64,000 nucleotides of DNA. Source: Apibacter raozihei. GTDB lineage: Bacteria; Bacteroidota; Bacteroidia; Flavobacteriales; Weeksellaceae. A program made the position numbers and the translations under genes. Below, piece by piece: positions 49 to 10,931 of the stretch. A model generated the notes under the pieces. It did not search any database. It was not told where the DNA came from and saw only the letters and a list, made by a program, of their open reading frames with translations. Location: NCBI RefSeq assembly GCF_004014855.1, contig NZ_CP034930.1, positions 2,895,716 through 2,959,715 on the forward strand, given 5' to 3'. How positions within the stretch are numbered: the stretch's first letter is position 1; each line of letters opens with the position of its first letter.

Positions 49-600
49 ATGAATAAAACTATACTGATATTGCTATTTTTTGTCTTTAGCCTTTTTTCAT
101 TTTCACAGACTACTAAAACAATAGTTGATCTTGAAAAATTATCAGAGCAGGAACTCGGCAATATTTCCCAAAGTGTTTCACAAAAAGGTTGGGTTTTACT
201 GAAAGATAAGAATCATAATTATATATTGAATTGCTCCAATAAAGATTATCATTTATTTTTTTCCATTATTTGTGAAAAAGCAACTGATAGACCCGGATTT
301 CATATTGAATTTTCTAATAACTACAGAGACGGAAGCTACGGAGGCATAGATTTTTTGAGCTCTAACGACGACCGGGAGGTACAACTTTTGTTAGATGGTA
401 AAAGTTTCCAAAATCCATTTAAAAACTATGAAGAAACTCTATTTAAAAAATTTACTGAAGCTTTAAGAAATGCAAAAATTCTTACTATCGAGGTTTACGA
501 TCATGATGATTTCACTCAGGAACTTAAATTGAATCGCTCTATTGATTTTAAGCTTGAAAATGGAGATTTAATAGACTATCCGGTACAATGTAATGAATGA
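49..600 (+). CDS. Hypothetical secreted protein
   Basis: I do not recognise this 183-residue protein. Residues 1-19 form a clear Sec signal peptide: a Lys at position 3, a long Leu/Ile/Phe core, and a small-residue cleavage region before Gln20. The mature part is charged and polar with no membrane segment, so it is probably periplasmic or exported. The ATG at 49 is chosen because the signal peptide needs it. The neighbour downstream is a small membrane protein, with 185 bases between them. It lies at the outer part of the accessory region before the tRNA. No catalytic motif is visible and no function is proposed. Confidence 0.7.
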   Translation: MNKTILILLFFVFSLFSFSQTTKTIVDLEKLSEQELGNISQSVSQKGWVLLKDKNHNYILNCSNKDYHLFFSIICEKATDRPGFHIEFSNNYRDGSYGGIDFLSSNDDREVQLLLDGKSFQNPFKNYEETLFKKFTEALRNAKILTIEVYDHDDFTQELKLNRSIDFKLENGDLIDYPVQCNE

Positions 601-2258: not shown

Positions 2259-2302
2259 TTTAATAAAAATATATGAATGTAAATTAAAGGAAAAATCCCT
2301 TA

Positions 2303-2494
2303 TCAGCAAAGCCAAATCAAGTTTCTTTCGTTATTATCACATGGTCTACAAAAACCAAATCCAATAGCTTTCGGCATTTGTGTTCCTATCAGGGCTTTGC
2401 AAGTAAGTTCATCAAAAGTTGAAGGTATATAAGCTTTCTTTGCTGTTGCATAAAATTGCTTTGTAGTTTGGCTTTTTACTATTTCTATCTCCAC
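2303..2494 (-). CDS. Small hypothetical protein, possibly a truncated fragment
   Basis: This is a 63-codon ORF beginning with GTG. The first 40 residues (MEIEIVKSQTTKQFYATAKK onward) have the look of a conserved small protein. The last 24, rich in Cys, Asn and aromatic residues, look unlike the start. That suggests a gene whose 3' part was lost or frameshifted. It ends 44 bases before the start of the next minus-strand gene. In-frame stop codons just upstream of the GTG rule out a longer form. No function is visible. Confidence 0.35.
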   Translation of the reverse strand: MEIEIVKSQTTKQFYATAKKAYIPSTFDELTCKALIGTQMPKAIGFGFCRPCDNNERNLIWLC

Positions 2495-2904
2495 CAGAGA
2501 TTTTTAATAAAAAGAAGGAAGTTCCATCTTTTTTGTTTCTTTCTTTAAAATTGATAATTGTTACACATTGGTTTATGTTTTTTGAGTTAGTGTATCACTT
2601 GCAAACAAAAAACCAGAGGAAAAAGATTAAGCTTTCATCTTGAATTTTTATACATTCTGGAATTTGTTCTGTTTCTTATGTAATTTGAGTGGGAGGTTTT
2701 CCCTTTAATACTGGTGGGGGAATTTAATTAGGGTAGTTTGCTCATAAATATATTTTTAAGATAAATTTCTATGGAAAAATTTTAGCTTAAATCAGGGGGG
2801 AGATAAAGTTTAACGTATTAATTTACTTATATTTGCATTTGCTAAGTATAAAAATATACAAAATATAATAGTACTAATTAGAATTCCAATAATATATAGC
2901 TACG
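2495..2904. other. Intergenic region upstream of gajA
   Basis: No ORF is supported in this 410-base stretch between a minus-strand fragment and the plus-strand Gabija operon. It contains the candidate gajA promoter near 2828. The rest is AT-rich with a few G-runs (for example near 2693, 2712 and 2795) and no repeat or hairpin that I could recognise. Confidence 0.5.
2828..2835 (+). promoter_or_regulatory. Candidate -7 element for gajAB
   Basis: TATATTTG matches TAnnTTTG and lies 69 bases before the gajA ATG, giving a leader of about 65 bases. A TTTA around 2809, about 17-20 bases upstream, is only a weak -33 match. Confidence 0.35.
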
Positions 2905-4677
2905 ATGAACATTAAAAATATTAAAATTCAAAACTTTAGAAATTTTAAAGACTTTTCAATTGACTTTTCAGAAGGGTTTCAAACAATTATAGGAGAAAAT
3001 AATGTTGGAAAGAGCAATCTTTATTGGGCTATTAGACTTGTACTTGACAGAGAACTATCTTATAATTCGAGAAAATTAGAACTCAAGGATTTTCACAATT
3101 ACAAGAATTCTATTACAATTAATGATTATGTACTGATTTCAATTGAGCTTTTTAGCGAAAATCTTGCATCTTTTCCCACTTTTCATGCATTTAAAACAAG
3201 TGATACTACCGCACAGATTACCTATGTATATGCTCACAGAAGCAAGTTTAATGAAGATGATGCTACTCCAGAAGAAATTGAGTTAAATGACTTTAATTGG
3301 CGTTTATTTGCAGGAAATCAGACTCTCAACCTAGAATATTTGGTAAGTAGATCAGCACAAATAACTTTTAGGGATTTAGAAGGAATAAATCTTTATTATA
3401 TAAATGCTTTCCGTAATATAAATTCAGATTTGCACGGTAATACAAAGTCGTTATTAAGTAGATATTGCCAATCAAGAGAAAATGCAGAAGAAGAGCTTGA
3501 AAGTATTCAGACAATCTTACAACAATCATCTACTGATTTGAATAAATTACTTTTTATTCCTAATTTATCTGAAACGATACAAAAAAAAGGTATTGATATA
3601 GCAGGCCAATATTTCTCTTTTCCAGTAGCAATTAGTTTTCTCTCAAATTATAATACTGATGCTTGGAATCAGTTAAATTTATTTTTTTGCCCTGAAGAAA
3701 ACAATAATATTCCTATTCAAGTTTTAGGATTAGGACAAAAAAATATTTTATATTTGAGTTTATTTATTGCTGAATTAGAAAATTCAAGTAAACAACACGA
3801 AATAAACCTTTTACTTATTGAAGAGCCAGAAGCACATCTTCATCCTCAATTACAAAAAATACTTTTTGCAAATTTGAACGGATTGAAGACAACCCAAGTT
3901 TTTATGACATCACACTCTACCCATATAGCAAGTGATTGTGATTACAAAAACTTAAATATTCTATACAGAAATAAAGAAAAAGAAGTCAAATCCTTTTCAC
4001 CATTTGGAAATGGTCTTTTAACCGACAGAGAGAGTAAATTGCTTAAACGTTATTTAGATGCTACGAGAAGTGAAATGTTTTTTGCTTCCGCGATTATTTA
4101 TGTTGAGGGTGTAGGCGAACAGTTTGTAATTCCTTCAATTGCTAAGGAAGTTTATGGTATTAATTTGACTGAACACAACATCTCAGTAATTCCTATTCAC
4201 AGCAGGTTTTTTGACCCATATTTAAAAATCGTGCAAGATTCAAATCTTGAGATTCCTGCAGTTGCTATTATTGATGGGGATAGCACAGAACTAAAAGAAG
4301 ACGATACGGAAACTACAGCTGTTGCAAATGCTAAAGAACTTGAAGTAACAGATAGGGTTGTAGTTATGTCAGGAGAAAATACATTCGAAATTGATTTATT
4401 TCCGAATGTAGAAACGAATAATATTTATTTGAAAACTTGTTTTGAAAATTTGAATCATAAAAAATCATTTGAAAATTTAATTAATGCAACTAAAGACGAA
4501 GAAGAAAATTGGTCAATAGGATTAATTAAGCGAATAGACCAAACAGTAATGAAAGGAAGATTTGCCCAAGAATTAAGCTTATTAATTGATAAAGACTTCC
4601 AAGTCCCTGAATATATTGAAAAAGCAATTTTACATATTGCTAAATGTAAAAATATTGAAGTAAACAATGCTAAATGA
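2905..4677 (+). CDS. gajA: Gabija anti-phage endonuclease GajA (OLD-family ATPase/TOPRIM)
   Basis: This 590-residue protein has the OLD-nuclease layout. An ABC-type ATPase comes first: Walker A GENNVGKS at residues 30-37 with K36, a signature-like LGLGQKN near residue 273, and Walker B with EEPEAHLHP at 306-314. A C-terminal TOPRIM nuclease follows, with its acidic Glu at E401 (YVEG) and a DGD at D457/D459. In Gabija, GajA forms a tetrameric sequence-selective DNA nuclease held in check by nucleotides. Length is close to known GajA (about 580). The last 11 bases overlap the helicase gene at 4667, the classic GajA-GajB arrangement, so translation is probably coupled. OLD proteins also occur alone or in retron and Paris-type systems; the helicase partner makes Gabija the best call. 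Confidence 0.88.
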   Translation: MNIKNIKIQNFRNFKDFSIDFSEGFQTIIGENNVGKSNLYWAIRLVLDRELSYNSRKLELKDFHNYKNSITINDYVLISIELFSENLASFPTFHAFKTSDTTAQITYVYAHRSKFNEDDATPEEIELNDFNWRLFAGNQTLNLEYLVSRSAQITFRDLEGINLYYINAFRNINSDLHGNTKSLLSRYCQSRENAEEELESIQTILQQSSTDLNKLLFIPNLSETIQKKGIDIAGQYFSFPVAISFLSNYNTDAWNQLNLFFCPEENNNIPIQVLGLGQKNILYLSLFIAELENSSKQHEINLLLIEEPEAHLHPQLQKILFANLNGLKTTQVFMTSHSTHIASDCDYKNLNILYRNKEKEVKSFSPFGNGLLTDRESKLLKRYLDATRSEMFFASAIIYVEGVGEQFVIPSIAKEVYGINLTEHNISVIPIHSRFFDPYLKIVQDSNLEIPAVAIIDGDSTELKEDDTETTAVANAKELEVTDRVVVMSGENTFEIDLFPNVETNNIYLKTCFENLNHKKSFENLINATKDEEENWSIGLIKRIDQTVMKGRFAQELSLLIDKDFQVPEYIEKAILHIAKCKNIEVNNAK

Positions 4678-6367
4678 CAAGCAGTGTAGAGTAGTTTATG
4701 ATTTAACTGGCAACACAATTGTTAGTGCATCTCCTGGTTCGGGAAAAACAAAAACACTTGTTGCAAGAGCACAGCATAAGTTGGAAACAATTCCATTTCA
4801 CAAATCATTAGCTTTAATTACATATACAAACGCAGGCGCAGATGAAATTGCCTACCGTTTAGCAGACCAAGATTACAAAGTTTTCATTGGTACAATACAC
4901 CGTTTCTGTTTAGAATTTATTTTACGTCCATTTGGGTGGATTTTTAATTGGCATAAGCCGAGAGTGGTTACTTATAATGAATTAAATGAATTTATTGAGG
5001 AAAATAAGACTTTAGATTTAGGAAGTAGCCCATTAGATGAGTTAAACAAAATAAAAAAAACACTTGATGGAAATTTAGATACAACAGTTGTTTGGAATAA
5101 TTTAACAGATATACAAACAGTAGCAAATGCTTTTTATGATTTTCTTCAAAACAGGAAAGCTATTGATTTTAATGAAATATTATATCGTTCTTATAAAATC
5201 ATAAAAGAAAAAGATTTTGTAATAAGTTCTCTTGCAAATAAATTTTATGAAATTTCAATTGACGAATTTCAAGATACAAATATTTATCAATATGAAATAC
5301 TAAAAGCAATTCAACAGAAAAAAATATGTACATTTTTTATGGTTGGAGATGAAAAACAAAGAATTTATCGATTTGCAGGCGCTATTGATAATGCGTTTAA
5401 AAGAGCTTCTCTTGACTTTGATGCTCCAATTGAAATTTTGGAAGTAAACTATCGCTCAACAAGTAATATAATTAATACATATTCTTCGTTATTCGAAAAC
5501 CACCCCGAATTGATAAACGAATCAGAATATAAATCAATTGATTATAAAGTAATTTTTCAGCAAACAAAAAAAGACGACCATAATACAATTGTTAAAAATT
5601 ATATTGAATATTTAGTAAATAAAGGGAATATTGAGCCATCTGAAATTGCAATTCTTTCATTACAATGGAGAGATGCGTTAAGTGTAAGTAAAGCACTTAG
5701 AAACAAATTTCGTATTGTTGGTTTAGGAGCATTGCCTCATAAAAGTTTAAATAACTCAACATTTAATTTGGTTCGTTGCCTTAGTAGGTTTTCTCATTCA
5801 ATTACCGTAAAGAGTTTAAGAATAATTCGCAGAGCCATTGAATTACATGTTTTAGAAAATAACCTGACTATTAGCAACACAGAGTTTAACTATATTACAA
5901 ATTCTCTTATCTCAAAATTCGGACAAATTGATAATAGTCTTTCTTTAAAAGATGGTATTTTTGAACTTCAAAAAGTTTTTGATATAATTTTTAAAGTTTC
6001 ACATTCAGCATTTGATGAATTATTGTACTTACTTGATGATGATGAAGCTGAGCAATGGACTTTTGAAAAATATATTGAAACATTATCAGGAGTAGCTGGG
6101 ATTACAATAAACACAATCCACCAAGCAAAGGGTTTGGAATACAAAGTTGTTATTCTTAACCAAATAAACGAAAACAAAATTCCATACCAAATGTATTTGG
6201 GACAGCAAAATGGTAATTATATTTATGAGGATTTAACAGAAGAAAGTATAGAGGATGGAAGAACACTTTTATATGTTGGTTTGAGCCGAGCTCAGGCAGT
6301 TTTAGTCATTTTACACAATTGGAAGCCTTCAATGTTTATTCAGACTTTAAAGTCTGTAAATACTTAA
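4667..6367 (+). CDS. gajB: Gabija helicase GajB (UvrD/Rep-like, SF1)
   Basis: The 566-residue protein carries the superfamily 1A helicase motifs in order: Walker A ASPGSGKT with K27; motif II DEFQD at 199-203; GDEKQRIYRF as motif III; NYRST as motif IV; TIHQAKGLEY as motif V; and YVGLSRA near R541 as motif VI. In Gabija, GajB binds GajA and is thought to sense or process DNA ends made during phage attack. It is somewhat longer than the best studied GajB (about 490). Its ATG lies inside the 3' end of gajA. Alone it could be mistaken for a UvrD or PcrA repair helicase, but it is shorter and lacks the usual long 1B/2B insertions. Confidence 0.87.
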   Translation: MLNDKQCRVVYDLTGNTIVSASPGSGKTKTLVARAQHKLETIPFHKSLALITYTNAGADEIAYRLADQDYKVFIGTIHRFCLEFILRPFGWIFNWHKPRVVTYNELNEFIEENKTLDLGSSPLDELNKIKKTLDGNLDTTVVWNNLTDIQTVANAFYDFLQNRKAIDFNEILYRSYKIIKEKDFVISSLANKFYEISIDEFQDTNIYQYEILKAIQQKKICTFFMVGDEKQRIYRFAGAIDNAFKRASLDFDAPIEILEVNYRSTSNIINTYSSLFENHPELINESEYKSIDYKVIFQQTKKDDHNTIVKNYIEYLVNKGNIEPSEIAILSLQWRDALSVSKALRNKFRIVGLGALPHKSLNNSTFNLVRCLSRFSHSITVKSLRIIRRAIELHVLENNLTISNTEFNYITNSLISKFGQIDNSLSLKDGIFELQKVFDIIFKVSHSAFDELLYLLDDDEAEQWTFEKYIETLSGVAGITINTIHQAKGLEYKVVILNQINENKIPYQMYLGQQNGNYIYEDLTEESIEDGRTLLYVGLSRAQAVLVILHNWKPSMFIQTLKSVNT

Positions 6368-6733
6368 CTCAAAATTAAATCTTAGCTGTATAGGTAATAT
6401 TTACAATATAAAAACCACCCCACAAAAGTAGAGTAGCTTATCAACTAACTCAAAAACCAATGATAGTTCGAATTACCACTGATAGCTTTATCAATGCTCT
6501 CGTTAAACTCAAAAGCATTTACATTCCTTTCCAGAAACGTATCAATATAACTGGATTTATTGGCTTGGATAAACAAGTTATACACTTTACATAAAAATCT
6601 TATCATTTTAATAATCGTTTACTATTCAGTTAAATGTAGTATGCCTAATTGTATGCCTTTTTTAGCATGAAATAGTAAAATCAGAAGCTATCTAAAGAAG
6701 TAAATTATATAACTCCTTGATTTTAAATAAAAA
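6368..6733. other. Decayed region between gajB and tRNA-fMet
   Basis: The stretch holds no intact gene. It includes the C-terminal remnant described at 6445-6606. The part from 6607 to 6733 is AT-rich with no ORF. I looked for a direct repeat of the tRNA 3' end that could mark an integration site in 1-6760 and saw none. Confidence 0.45.
6445..6606 (-). pseudogene. Remnant resembling the C-terminus of a DUF3871-type protein
   Basis: The minus strand encodes a 53-codon fragment whose readable part runs YNLFIQANKSSYIDTFLERN, then NAFEFNESIDKAISG, and ends NYHWFLS followed by TAG. From memory this resembles the C-terminal end of DUF3871 proteins, which are found in Bacteroidota mobile and integrative elements. 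A stop lies just upstream of its Met, and the large N-terminal part is missing. It is therefore read as debris of a mobile element. The family assignment is by recall and moderately sure; the truncation is seen directly. Confidence 0.5.
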
Positions 6734-6759: not shown

Positions 6760-6765
6760 ACTTAG

Positions 6766-6838
<73 letters not shown>

Positions 6839-6891: not shown

Positions 6892-8037
6892 TCACTTTTT
6901 TTTCGGTGGATGAGCTTTTATATACTCCAAAACCTCTTCAGGATGGTCGGTAAGAAAAAGTAAATTCTTGTATTCCATACCTTTAGCTAGCTGATGCAAG
7001 GTTGAATAAAGAGAAGTATCTTCTACGTATCTTTTTTTACCAAAAAAGACCATGGGGCTATAATAGCCATAAGTTCCGTAATGATTCTGGGTGGCTTCCT
7101 GAAAAATTTCCTGAGTAGTTCCGGCACTACCCGGTGCATATACCACACCGTACAAACATACCGCCAGAAGAATATCTTCCCGTATACTATTAGAAAAATA
7201 CTTGGCAATATGTGAAGCAAATACATTGCTGGGCTCATGCCCGTAAAACCAGGTAGGAATAGCCAGGTTTCCGTTTCCTTCCGGATATAGCTCTAAAACC
7301 CTGAGTGCCTGTTCCAGATAATTTTCTGCCAGATATTCCGGCTGTTCAGGGTTTGTTTTCTTTACATCCGAAAGAATAGCCAAAGCCTTATAAAAATCGG
7401 CTTCGGTATAATTAGCCATATAAGCTCCGAAATTTGCAGCTTCCATAATTCCGGGACCTCCTCCGGTAACGATATAATAACCGCTTTCTGCAAGCAGACG
7501 GGCTGCTTTAGCAGTCTTAATATAAAATTCGGAAGTACGGTCCATACTATGCCCTCCCATGAAGCCTACGGCCTTCTTTTCGGTCATTCCCTCATCATCA
7601 AACAATAAAAGCTCTCTGAGGCTGCTGTCTATACTATAATCATGAATCCTCTGTGCCAATGCGTCATCCATTGGCGGGTTAAAACGGGTAGTATTAAAAT
7701 GGATATAAATTTTTTCATCGCAGGTCAAAGTTTCTCCATCTTCTTTAGCCATCAGTTCTTTCCATGTATATAGCGACCGACGGGCCGGTTTATATGGCAA
7801 TGACTTAAACTTCGGGTAAACAAAAACTCCCTGCATCACCAAAAACACAAAATCTTCCTGCGGCAGTTCACAATTTATAAAAATGGTATTTTTGAAAGTA
7901 TAGATTTTCCAGTCAACCGGAAAGTTGACAAAATTTATATTCTGAACAACTATATCTTTAAAATAGATACTTTTAGAAATGTAACTCTTAAATTCACTTT
8001 CTGACTTTATAAAGTTTTTAAACCTTTTGATACTCAT
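6892..8037 (-). CDS. LOG family protein (Rossmann-fold, extended form)
   Basis: This 381-residue protein holds a LOG-type domain. GG at 161-162 starts the Rossmann fold, TGGGPGIMEA is at 191-200, and PGSAGTTQE at 302-310 corresponds to the family's PGGxGTxxE. LOG proteins are nucleotide-binding; plant and some bacterial members release cytokinin bases from nucleotide phosphates, and many are annotated 'lysine decarboxylase' in error. It is longer than the usual 200 residues because of about 150 extra N-terminal residues. The motif Gly is replaced by Ser-Ala (GSAG), so catalytic equivalence is uncertain. A hairpin at 8063 separates it from the upstream gene. Confidence 0.8.
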   Translation of the reverse strand: MSIKRFKNFIKSESEFKSYISKSIYFKDIVVQNINFVNFPVDWKIYTFKNTIFINCELPQEDFVFLVMQGVFVYPKFKSLPYKPARRSLYTWKELMAKEDGETLTCDEKIYIHFNTTRFNPPMDDALAQRIHDYSIDSSLRELLLFDDEGMTEKKAVGFMGGHSMDRTSEFYIKTAKAARLLAESGYYIVTGGGPGIMEAANFGAYMANYTEADFYKALAILSDVKKTNPEQPEYLAENYLEQALRVLELYPEGNGNLAIPTWFYGHEPSNVFASHIAKYFSNSIREDILLAVCLYGVVYAPGSAGTTQEIFQEATQNHYGTYGYYSPMVFFGKKRYVEDTSLYSTLHQLAKGMEYKNLLFLTDHPEEVLEYIKAHPPKKK

Positions 8038-9902: not shown

Positions 9903-10931
9903 TTATATGATAATATTTACCTCTCTTTGTAAATGAATATTAAAAATTTTATTAACATCCCTGATTATGTTTTCTGAGAGATTGTATATTTCCATTCCCC
10001 CGGCATTTCCATAGTTAACCAGTACTAAAGCCTGTTTGTCATGTACCCCGGCGTTGCCTACTCTTTTACCTTTCCATCCGGCTTTTTCAATTAACCATCC
10101 GGCCGGAACTTTCACCTGATTTTCAGGTGCTTCGTAATGGGGCATCTCAGGATATATTTCTTTTAGGCTGTTAAACTGCTGAACTGGCAACAGGGGGTTT
10201 TTAAAAAAACTACCTGCATTACCGGTAACTTTAGGATTCGGAAGTTTATTATTACGGATAGCAATTACAGCCTCACTTACTTCTTTAATAGAAGGTTCGG
10301 ATATGCCTTGTTTCAGCAATTCTTCTTTTATGGAACCGTAATCTGTTACAATATGATGATTTTCACTGGTAAGACGATACGTGACTTCCAGAATTACATA
10401 ACGGTTTTTTCCTTCATTTTTAAAATAAGAATCTCTGTAACCAAACCTGCAGTCTTTGTTTGAAAAAGTTTCTATAGCACAGGTTTGAATATTTAAGGCT
10501 TTTAATGAATAAAAATGATCTTTAATTTCTACTCCGTAAGCTCCTATATTCTGCATAGGAGAAGTACCTGCATTTCCAGGAATCAGGGAAAGGTTTTCTA
10601 ACCCTCCGTAGTTTTTATTTATACAATATTGTACGAAAGAGTGCCAATTTTCACCGGCGCTGGCCGTAACTAAAACCTGATGGTTATCGTCCGGTTTTTC
10701 TTCACGTATTCCCTTTAAGGCTATATGAATGGCCAATCCCTCCCAGGATTTAGCAAAAAGAATATTGCTACCGCCCCCTACCATGAGAATAGGCAATTCT
10801 TTTTCTTGTGCAAAAGCTAAAGCTTCTTCCAACTCCTGCATCGAGGTAATTTCACAGAAAAAACGACAGTAAGCCGGAACTCCGAAAGTAGTCAGTTCTT
10901 TTATATCTTTATTTTCCTCGATATGAATCAT
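9903..10931 (-). CDS. murB: UDP-N-acetylenolpyruvoylglucosamine reductase MurB
   Basis: MurB uses FAD and NADPH to reduce the enolpyruvyl group in UDP-MurNAc synthesis for peptidoglycan. The FAD-binding part shows TFGVPA at 15-20, VGGGSNILF at 51-59 and IPGNAGTSPMQNIGAYGVE at 117-135. The catalytic Ser lies in GNAGSFFKNP (S241), and the C-terminal Glu in LQREVN. At 342 residues it matches the E. coli enzyme closely and is of the longer, type I form. Its ATG overlaps the aminotransferase stop by four bases (ATGA), which indicates translational coupling. Confidence 0.95.
   Translation of the reverse strand: MIHIEENKDIKELTTFGVPAYCRFFCEITSMQELEEALAFAQEKELPILMVGGGSNILFAKSWEGLAIHIALKGIREEKPDDNHQVLVTASAGENWHSFVQYCINKNYGGLENLSLIPGNAGTSPMQNIGAYGVEIKDHFYSLKALNIQTCAIETFSNKDCRFGYRDSYFKNEGKNRYVILEVTYRLTSENHHIVTDYGSIKEELLKQGISEPSIKEVSEAVIAIRNNKLPNPKVTGNAGSFFKNPLLPVQQFNSLKEIYPEMPHYEAPENQVKVPAGWLIEKAGWKGKRVGNAGVHDKQALVLVNYGNAGGMEIYNLSENIIRDVNKIFNIHLQREVNIII

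Follow-up and report, generated by a model that had tools for sequence, protein, structure and literature searches.

How did an anti-phage gene pair come to lie beside a tRNA gene, among fragments of mobile-element genes? The question is raised by a 64,000-nucleotide stretch of the Apibacter raozihei genome (NCBI RefSeq assembly GCF_004014855.1, contig NZ_CP034930.1, positions 2,895,716 to 2,959,715 of the forward strand), hereafter called the window, in which two genes, gajA and gajB, are assigned to the Gabija defence system. Our analysis suggests that the pair very probably came in with a mobile element integrated at a tRNA gene, whose cargo it was, and was left behind as that element decayed. 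An initial annotation, made from the letters of the sequence, had proposed an intact, active Gabija system gained horizontally at a tRNA-adjacent site beside decayed mobile-element DNA; horizontal gain is supported here, and the carrier can be identified as an element typified by a gene of the DUF3871 family (PF12987).

Both reading frames are open and overlap by 11 bases (4667–4677), and the motif residues lie where the initial annotation had placed them: K36, E401, D457 and D459 in GajA and K27, D199 and R541 in GajB. Four Pfam profiles matched above their own cut-offs: AAA_15, OLD-like_TOPRIM, UvrD-helicase and UvrD_C. Among the best 25 of 111 PADLOC models that passed for GajA, 23 were GajA models, one was AriA and one was Old, the leading GajA model scoring 348 bits (2.6e-104) against 130 for AriA and 121 for Old. 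For GajB, the best 25 of 48 passing models comprised 24 GajB models, led by one at 252 bits (2.5e-75), and a single RTasHel model, the best other model among them at 169 bits. Matches in NCBIfam fell below cut-off, with the retron Eco8 effector at 52 bits (cut-off 250) and PtuA at 48 for GajA, and UvrD and PcrA at 129–131 bits for GajB. By profile, GajA is accordingly not closest to class 1 OLD, to retron (class 3) OLD or to PARIS AriA, which answers a doubt raised with the initial annotation.

The corresponding doubt about the helicase, that it might stand nearer UvrD/PcrA, receives a divided answer. Profiles place it with GajB (252 against 129–131 bits), whereas a search of its profile against solved structures is headed by UvrD, Rep and PcrA (up to 124 bits, for UvrD), with Bacillus cereus GajB lower, at 82–83 bits. 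For GajA, the same comparison gave class 2 OLD TOPRIM domains at the top (71 and 68 bits), followed by B. cereus GajA (51 bits) and the class 1 OLD protein of T. scotoductus (49 bits). We read the GajB ranking as counting against a near relationship to the B. cereus type and not against Gabija, a system whose definition, according to PMC10568477, asks for a UvrD-like helicase adjoining an OLD protein of the GajA type. Supported by profiles and by the defining gene pair, gajAB is an intact example of Gabija, an ordinary, widespread and known system.

The nuclease site of GajA has been described as E379, E383, D432, D434, D511, D513 and K541, with E400, E404, D455, D457, T506, E508 and K562 as counterparts in Burkholderia pseudomallei OLD (PMC10822852). 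Placed by eye from the structure alignment and the motif positions, the seven-position site here reads E401, E405, D457, D459, T493, E495 and K550; these residues and K36 are invariant in all five aligned GajA sequences, the window's included, and the motif residues first named in both proteins are identical in four aligned homologues (L022, L023, L093 and L098). Structure models built from shallow alignments, with a mean predicted local distance difference test score of 30.3 for GajA and 61.5 for GajB, were too poor for use.

The pair occurs in single copy in the source genome (3.29 Mb, one contig) and its distribution is patchy. The possibility that both genes are shared by every relative at this locus does not hold: a search with gajA, gajB not being queried, gave no GajA match at E 1e-20 in any of eight same-genus genomes, six of which contain short, weak ATPase matches (best 1.2e-5). 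At 1e-20, GajA was matched in 59 of 320 genomes of the family, with at most four candidates scored per genome; full-length close homologues (at least 865 bits) were confined to the source genome and two others (G136 and G258), and the remaining matches listed reached at most 130.3 bits. Beyond the family set, close relatives were found in a Bacteroidetes metagenome-assembled genome (MAG; L022, 83%), a Lutibacter MAG (L023, 76%) and Desulfosediminicola (L024, 57%), and gajB adjoins gajA in these three as well as in L093 and L098. Similarity at the DNA level to L022 (79%) is limited to window positions 2904–6368. No relative was found among viral contigs, and phage and plasmid records gave only matches of less than 60% identity. 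In the Desulfosediminicola flagellatus locus, gajA (L024:8001-9980) is split into two open reading frames (ORFs) about 280 bases apart, and gajB is open. In the Bacteroidetes MAG, some 5 kb separate gajAB from a CRISPR-like array (L022:976-3038; 30 repeat copies, start to start 68–71 bases), which is adjoined by two small ORFs that resemble, by eye, the ends of Cas1 and Cas2.

Fragments of mobile-element genes flank the pair on both sides in the window (Table 1), in agreement with the decayed sequence and the neighbouring tRNA gene of the initial annotation. The DUF3871 remnant covers positions 272–318 of the 318-position profile, which the DUF3871 gene of locus L071 matches at 471 bits, and is 89% identical to L097 over 46 aa. 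Its 44-residue peptide (6448–6579) matches longer genes in 11 of 59 relatives (E 0.1), and the 63-residue ORF on the other side (2306–2494) does so in eight of the 59, two matches being weak in each case (E 0.007–0.05); in several of those relatives the counterparts, DUF3871 and a gene of about 135 aa with no Pfam match (orf135), share a strand and are separated by a few kb. The orf135 fragment runs straight into DNA of the RadC C-terminus. About 170 bases separate the DUF3871 remnant from tRNA-Met, and the 3' end of this tRNA (window 6761–6762) is the point at which DNA homology with the same-genus genomes G002 and G003 begins, extending outward through host genes; on the gajB side homology is absent in G002, and the G003 contig stops about 30 bases beyond.

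Table 1. Genes and remnants at the gajAB locus, in window coordinates
Feature	Position	Strand	Description	Evidence
gajA	2905..4677	+	OLD-family ABC ATPase with TOPRIM nuclease domain, 590 aa	ORF list, PADLOC, Pfam, motifs
gajB	4667..6367	+	UvrD-like superfamily 1 helicase, 566 aa	ORF list, PADLOC, Pfam, motifs
tRNA-Met(cat)	6765..6838	-	Likely integration site	
DUF3871 (PF12987) remnant	6445..6591	-	Last ~48 codons and stop	59.7 bits, above Pfam cut-off
orf135 remnant	2342..2564	-	N-terminal part, in two frames (2490-2564; 2342-2488)	Match to the ~135-aa gene closing the cargo slot
RadC/JAB remnant	2296..2385	-	DNA of the C-terminal 29 residues	11 RadC-query matches; best 70% identity, E 5e-9
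63-aa ORF	2303..2494	-	Runs through the orf135 fragment into RadC-derived DNA (frame differs from RadC)	ORF list, homology
Host gene beside tRNA	6892..8037	-	SLOG/LOG-like, 381 aa; conserved edge of accessory region	

Complete elements in relatives provide the template for these fragments. Of 320 family genomes, 67 contain PF12987 at E 1e-10, and of 395 genomes drawn from the phylum, 15 contain it at E 1e-20; none of 14 control genomes did in either search. Seventy DUF3871 loci were examined with DUF3871 set to the plus strand and with orf135 and RadC counted at 45 bits or more; 60 of them were added later from the head of the list of DUF3871 matches, two genomes with the gene near contig ends (G300 and G165) being passed over, and several loci come from one genome (five from G158). 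Within the DNA fetched, a same-strand integrase match was present in 67 of the 70 loci, AAA_24 likewise in 67, orf135 in 53 and RadC in 41, and all 36 loci with the five genes share the order integrase, AAA_24, DUF3871, orf135, RadC, with a slot between DUF3871 and orf135. A tRNA gene ends less than 800 bases before the integrase in 43 of the 66 loci that have the integrase upstream of DUF3871 (Asn in 13, Val(tac) in 12, Met(cat) in 11, Ser in four, Val(gac) in two and Asp in one), and the tRNA end is repeated over at least 17 bases 9.8–16.3 kb onward in 26 of these 43, within the stretch inspected. Adjacency to tRNA genes, together with the repeated tRNA ends, indicates that DUF3871 elements are integrative elements that use tRNA 3' ends. 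Of ten backbone proteins scanned, a small number, none was recognized as a relaxase or a capsid protein. A description of this element family was not found in a few literature searches weak on subscription papers, which does not establish its absence from print.

Pairs of gajA and gajB occur in this slot. In two elements of another genus, L093 (genome G258) and L098 (G136), the order is DUF3871 on the plus strand, gajB and gajA on the minus strand, then orf135 on the plus strand; turned round, the window reads tRNA, DUF3871 remnant, gajB (minus), gajA (minus), orf135 remnant and RadC remnant. Both elements retain integrase, AAA_24, DUF3871 and orf135, with a tRNA-Met(cat) beside the integrase. 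All three full-length close pairs found in the 320 family genomes thus sit in the slot or its remains, and L077 has a distant pair (GajA 108 bits, GajB 47 bits), likewise antisense. The slots of L093 and L098 also hold ORFs of 405, 192, 576 and 506 aa; the two genomes are 99% identical in their longest slot ORF.

Several observations weigh against this derivation. Homology searches of the window gave no integrase remnant, and a search of the window and of the 20-kb locus L021 for a repeat of the tRNA end on the far side of the accessory region returned the tRNA itself and 10–17-base matches, none with E below 0.1; nor was such a repeat found for L093 or L098 within the stretch fetched. The tRNA-Met of those two elements is of a 75-nt type and that of the window of a 74-nt type, and a tRNA closely matching the window's is used only by L074 (67 of 74 positions). 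No element backbone gene was present in the DNA fetched around the pairs of L022, L023 and L024, and five truncated gajAB copies of the clade occupy another type of island (L135–L139; twice in G166 and once each in G115, G309 and G114). These copies, more than 99% alike where aligned, keep only the C-terminus of gajA and a gajB cut short, in an island that carries a tyrosine recombinase and no other backbone gene of the DUF3871 element. We conclude that the pair also travels by other routes, given the bare surroundings of L022–L024 and the truncated copies. Because a tyrosine integrase, AAA_24 (no trace by homology search of the window) and a tRNA-end repeat were not found, the window is read as a decayed remnant and not as a working element, and integration at its tRNA is judged from the remnants and the relatives. 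ORFs of 143 aa that match the GajA C-terminus were considered as a free-standing small protein and rejected, since they are the truncated gajAB copies in these near-identical islands; a thioredoxin-like gene, by eye, lies near the truncated pair in L137 and L139.

The same relatives bear on the proposal that gajAB was inserted alone beside the tRNA, and that the fragments of DUF3871, orf135 and RadC were left by an older element that had nothing to do with it. Similarity to L022 does stop exactly at the limits of the pair, and no backbone gene lies in the DNA fetched around the pairs of L022–L024; on the other side, order, strand and side of the fragments around gajAB agree with those of the genes that enclose the cargo of complete elements, and a close gajAB is held in equal place and orientation by two elements from another genus. 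We consider insertion of the pair alone a very improbable account.

The other contents of the slot are rich in defence genes. Bounded by DUF3871 and by orf135 or RadC in 56 of the 70 loci, and unbounded in 14, it has a median length of 6.7 kb (1.6–11.2 kb). Defence models were matched at 1e-5 in five of eight hand-picked loci, namely Qat genes with MkoC (L066), a methyltransferase with a UvrD-like helicase (L067), a type II methyltransferase (L068), CARF6 with a retron III-A phosphoribosyltransferase (L071) and type I restriction (L074, where the slot is not bounded); scans of the other three (L065, L069 and L070) gave no defence match. From 37 slots with mutually dissimilar longest ORFs, 20 were drawn at random, L065–L074 being excluded, and in 13 of them the longest ORF matched a PADLOC model at 1e-15 or better. 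The matches were to LmuB, AbiD, Tmn, PDC-M60A, PDC-M71B, PD-Lambda-2_B, type I restriction, LmuA (157 of 1457 residues), ThsA, type IIG (two slots) and type II restriction (two slots, one weak at 57 bits); PADLOC also has models for candidate systems, to which PDC-M60A and PDC-M71B, two of these 13, belong. None of ten control ORFs upstream of the integrase (10 of 36 available) had a PADLOC match; as the controls are shorter (106–444 aa) than the slot ORFs (290–2228 aa), the contrast of 13/20 with 0/10 is somewhat overstated.

This setting also helps to judge whether gajAB might be a class 2 OLD nuclease and helicase pair serving DNA repair or plasmid exclusion in place of phage defence. The resemblance of OLD proteins to RecF and Rad50 would suit such a role, as would the proximity of GajB to UvrD, Rep and PcrA among solved structures and the reported part of an archaeal class of OLD proteins in the cell cycle (PMC12796447). 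We nevertheless hold it to be very unlikely, as GajA and GajB are the best-scoring profiles, GajA is patchy, with none at 1e-20 in the eight same-genus genomes, and the pair occupies a slot whose other cargo matches defence models.

Taken further, the DUF3871 elements may constitute a family, so far undescribed, of small satellite-like elements that integrate at tRNA genes in Bacteroidota, with the DUF3871-orf135/RadC slot as a dedicated site of anti-phage gene exchange, a proposal we favour by a small margin over its negation. The longest ORFs without a PADLOC match at 1e-15 in seven of the 20 sampled slots, L107:8622-15305 (2228 aa), L126:7050-10283 (1078 aa), L134:8807-11041 (745 aa), L091:13918-16050 (711 aa), L120:6950-8941 (664 aa), L114:7342-9306 (655 aa) and L092:7800-8756 (319 aa), are by position candidates for unknown defence genes. 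If the proposal is true, new candidate defence genes can be taken directly from these ORFs, and the window represents an end state in which the defence is kept and the carrier lost.

Selection on the pair was estimated as omega, the ratio of non-synonymous to synonymous substitution rates, by a scripted Nei–Gojobori method, with synonymous divergence above 1 throughout and the values hence rough. Omega for GajA was 0.07, 0.08 and 0.09 against L022, L023 and L093, and saturated against L098; for GajB it was 0.10, 0.16, 0.23 and 0.23 against L022, L023, L093 and L098. These ratios indicate that both genes are under purifying selection, and intact catalytic residues with omega of 0.07–0.23 fit an active system. 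That gajAB is present but silent or non-functional in its host is an unlikely reading, though one of some weight. The carrier has decayed and no promoter could be assigned, the one match to TANNTTTG, which we take to be the Bacteroidetes-type promoter motif, lying at 2828–2835 amid matches at chance level (115 against 110 expected). Open frames, conserved catalytic residues and omega far below 1 speak for a functional pair, with the reservation that omega averages the whole divergence and is blind to recent silencing.

The history that we propose would run as follows. An element with gajAB in its slot would have integrated at the tRNA-Met 3' end; deletions would then have removed integrase through most of DUF3871 on one flank and, on the opposite flank, joined orf135 to RadC. 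With no integrase left in the window, the pair would be stranded, and loss of that gene would have fixed gajAB in place as a defence locus of the host. Inactivated phage-like elements are described as losing genes until host-useful functions remain (PMC9122126, citing others). Anti-phage activity of gajAB is predicted, with a mechanism modelled on the family. GajA and GajB would form a large complex, as in the 4:4 assembly of B. cereus (PMC10781630); GajB may act on DNA ends or on single-stranded DNA; the TOPRIM domain of GajA, restrained by the nucleotide-binding ATPase domain, would cut phage DNA. Infection might trigger the system by altering nucleotide levels or by exposing DNA ends without RecBCD-type protection, in line with reports that the nuclease is inhibited by nucleotides and released on their depletion (PMC8136825) and that Gabija restricts linear DNA whose ends lack RecBCD (PMC12407980).

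On the far side of the pair, the ORFs at window 49–600, 786–1133 and 1449–2315 and at L021 9951–12688 had a short XRE match as their sole homologue in the 70 element loci. Upstream of the window, a 42-nt direct repeat (88% identical; L021:9746-9787 and 10729-10770) surrounds a 221-aa ORF (9951–10616) that matches one phage family (phrog_21993).

Gabija occurs in more than 15% of sequenced genomes (PMC10781630), and because it is common one more copy teaches little. The wider interest lies in a recurrent element with one fixed, defence-rich cargo position, which would explain the arrival of the pair at a tRNA and offers a guilt-by-position search for new defence systems of Bacteroidota, and in the window as a putative example of a defence pair retained after the death of its carrier. 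Compared with the Gabija system of B. cereus VD045, the pair shares a layout in which a UvrD-like helicase gene comes after the OLD ATPase-TOPRIM gene, intact Walker motifs and, by eye, the seven-position site; it differs in its distant sequence (51 bits for the GajA profile and 83 for the GajB profile), in a GajB of 566 aa against solved chains of 493–499 aa, and in having, like B. pseudomallei OLD, threonine and glutamate (T493/E495) where the B. cereus type has D511/D513. The closest solved TOPRIM domains are those of the class 2 OLD nucleases of Xanthomonas and Burkholderia (6njv and 6nk8; 58–71 bits), a class defined, according to PMC10568477, by an adjacent UvrD/PcrA/Rep-like helicase and solved as isolated domains only. 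The gajAB pairs of L093 and L098 resemble the window's in sequence (GajA 66% and GajB 53% identical), slot and antisense orientation, and differ in that integrase, AAA_24 and DUF3871 are kept, the slot holds extra ORFs and the tRNA-Met is of another type. The loci of PMC9122126 are alike in being small and in a gene content that turns over fast between two conserved genes of the element, and unlike in their backbone and in that no helper phage or packaging is known for the DUF3871 elements; no Bacteroidetes element is mentioned in that paper.

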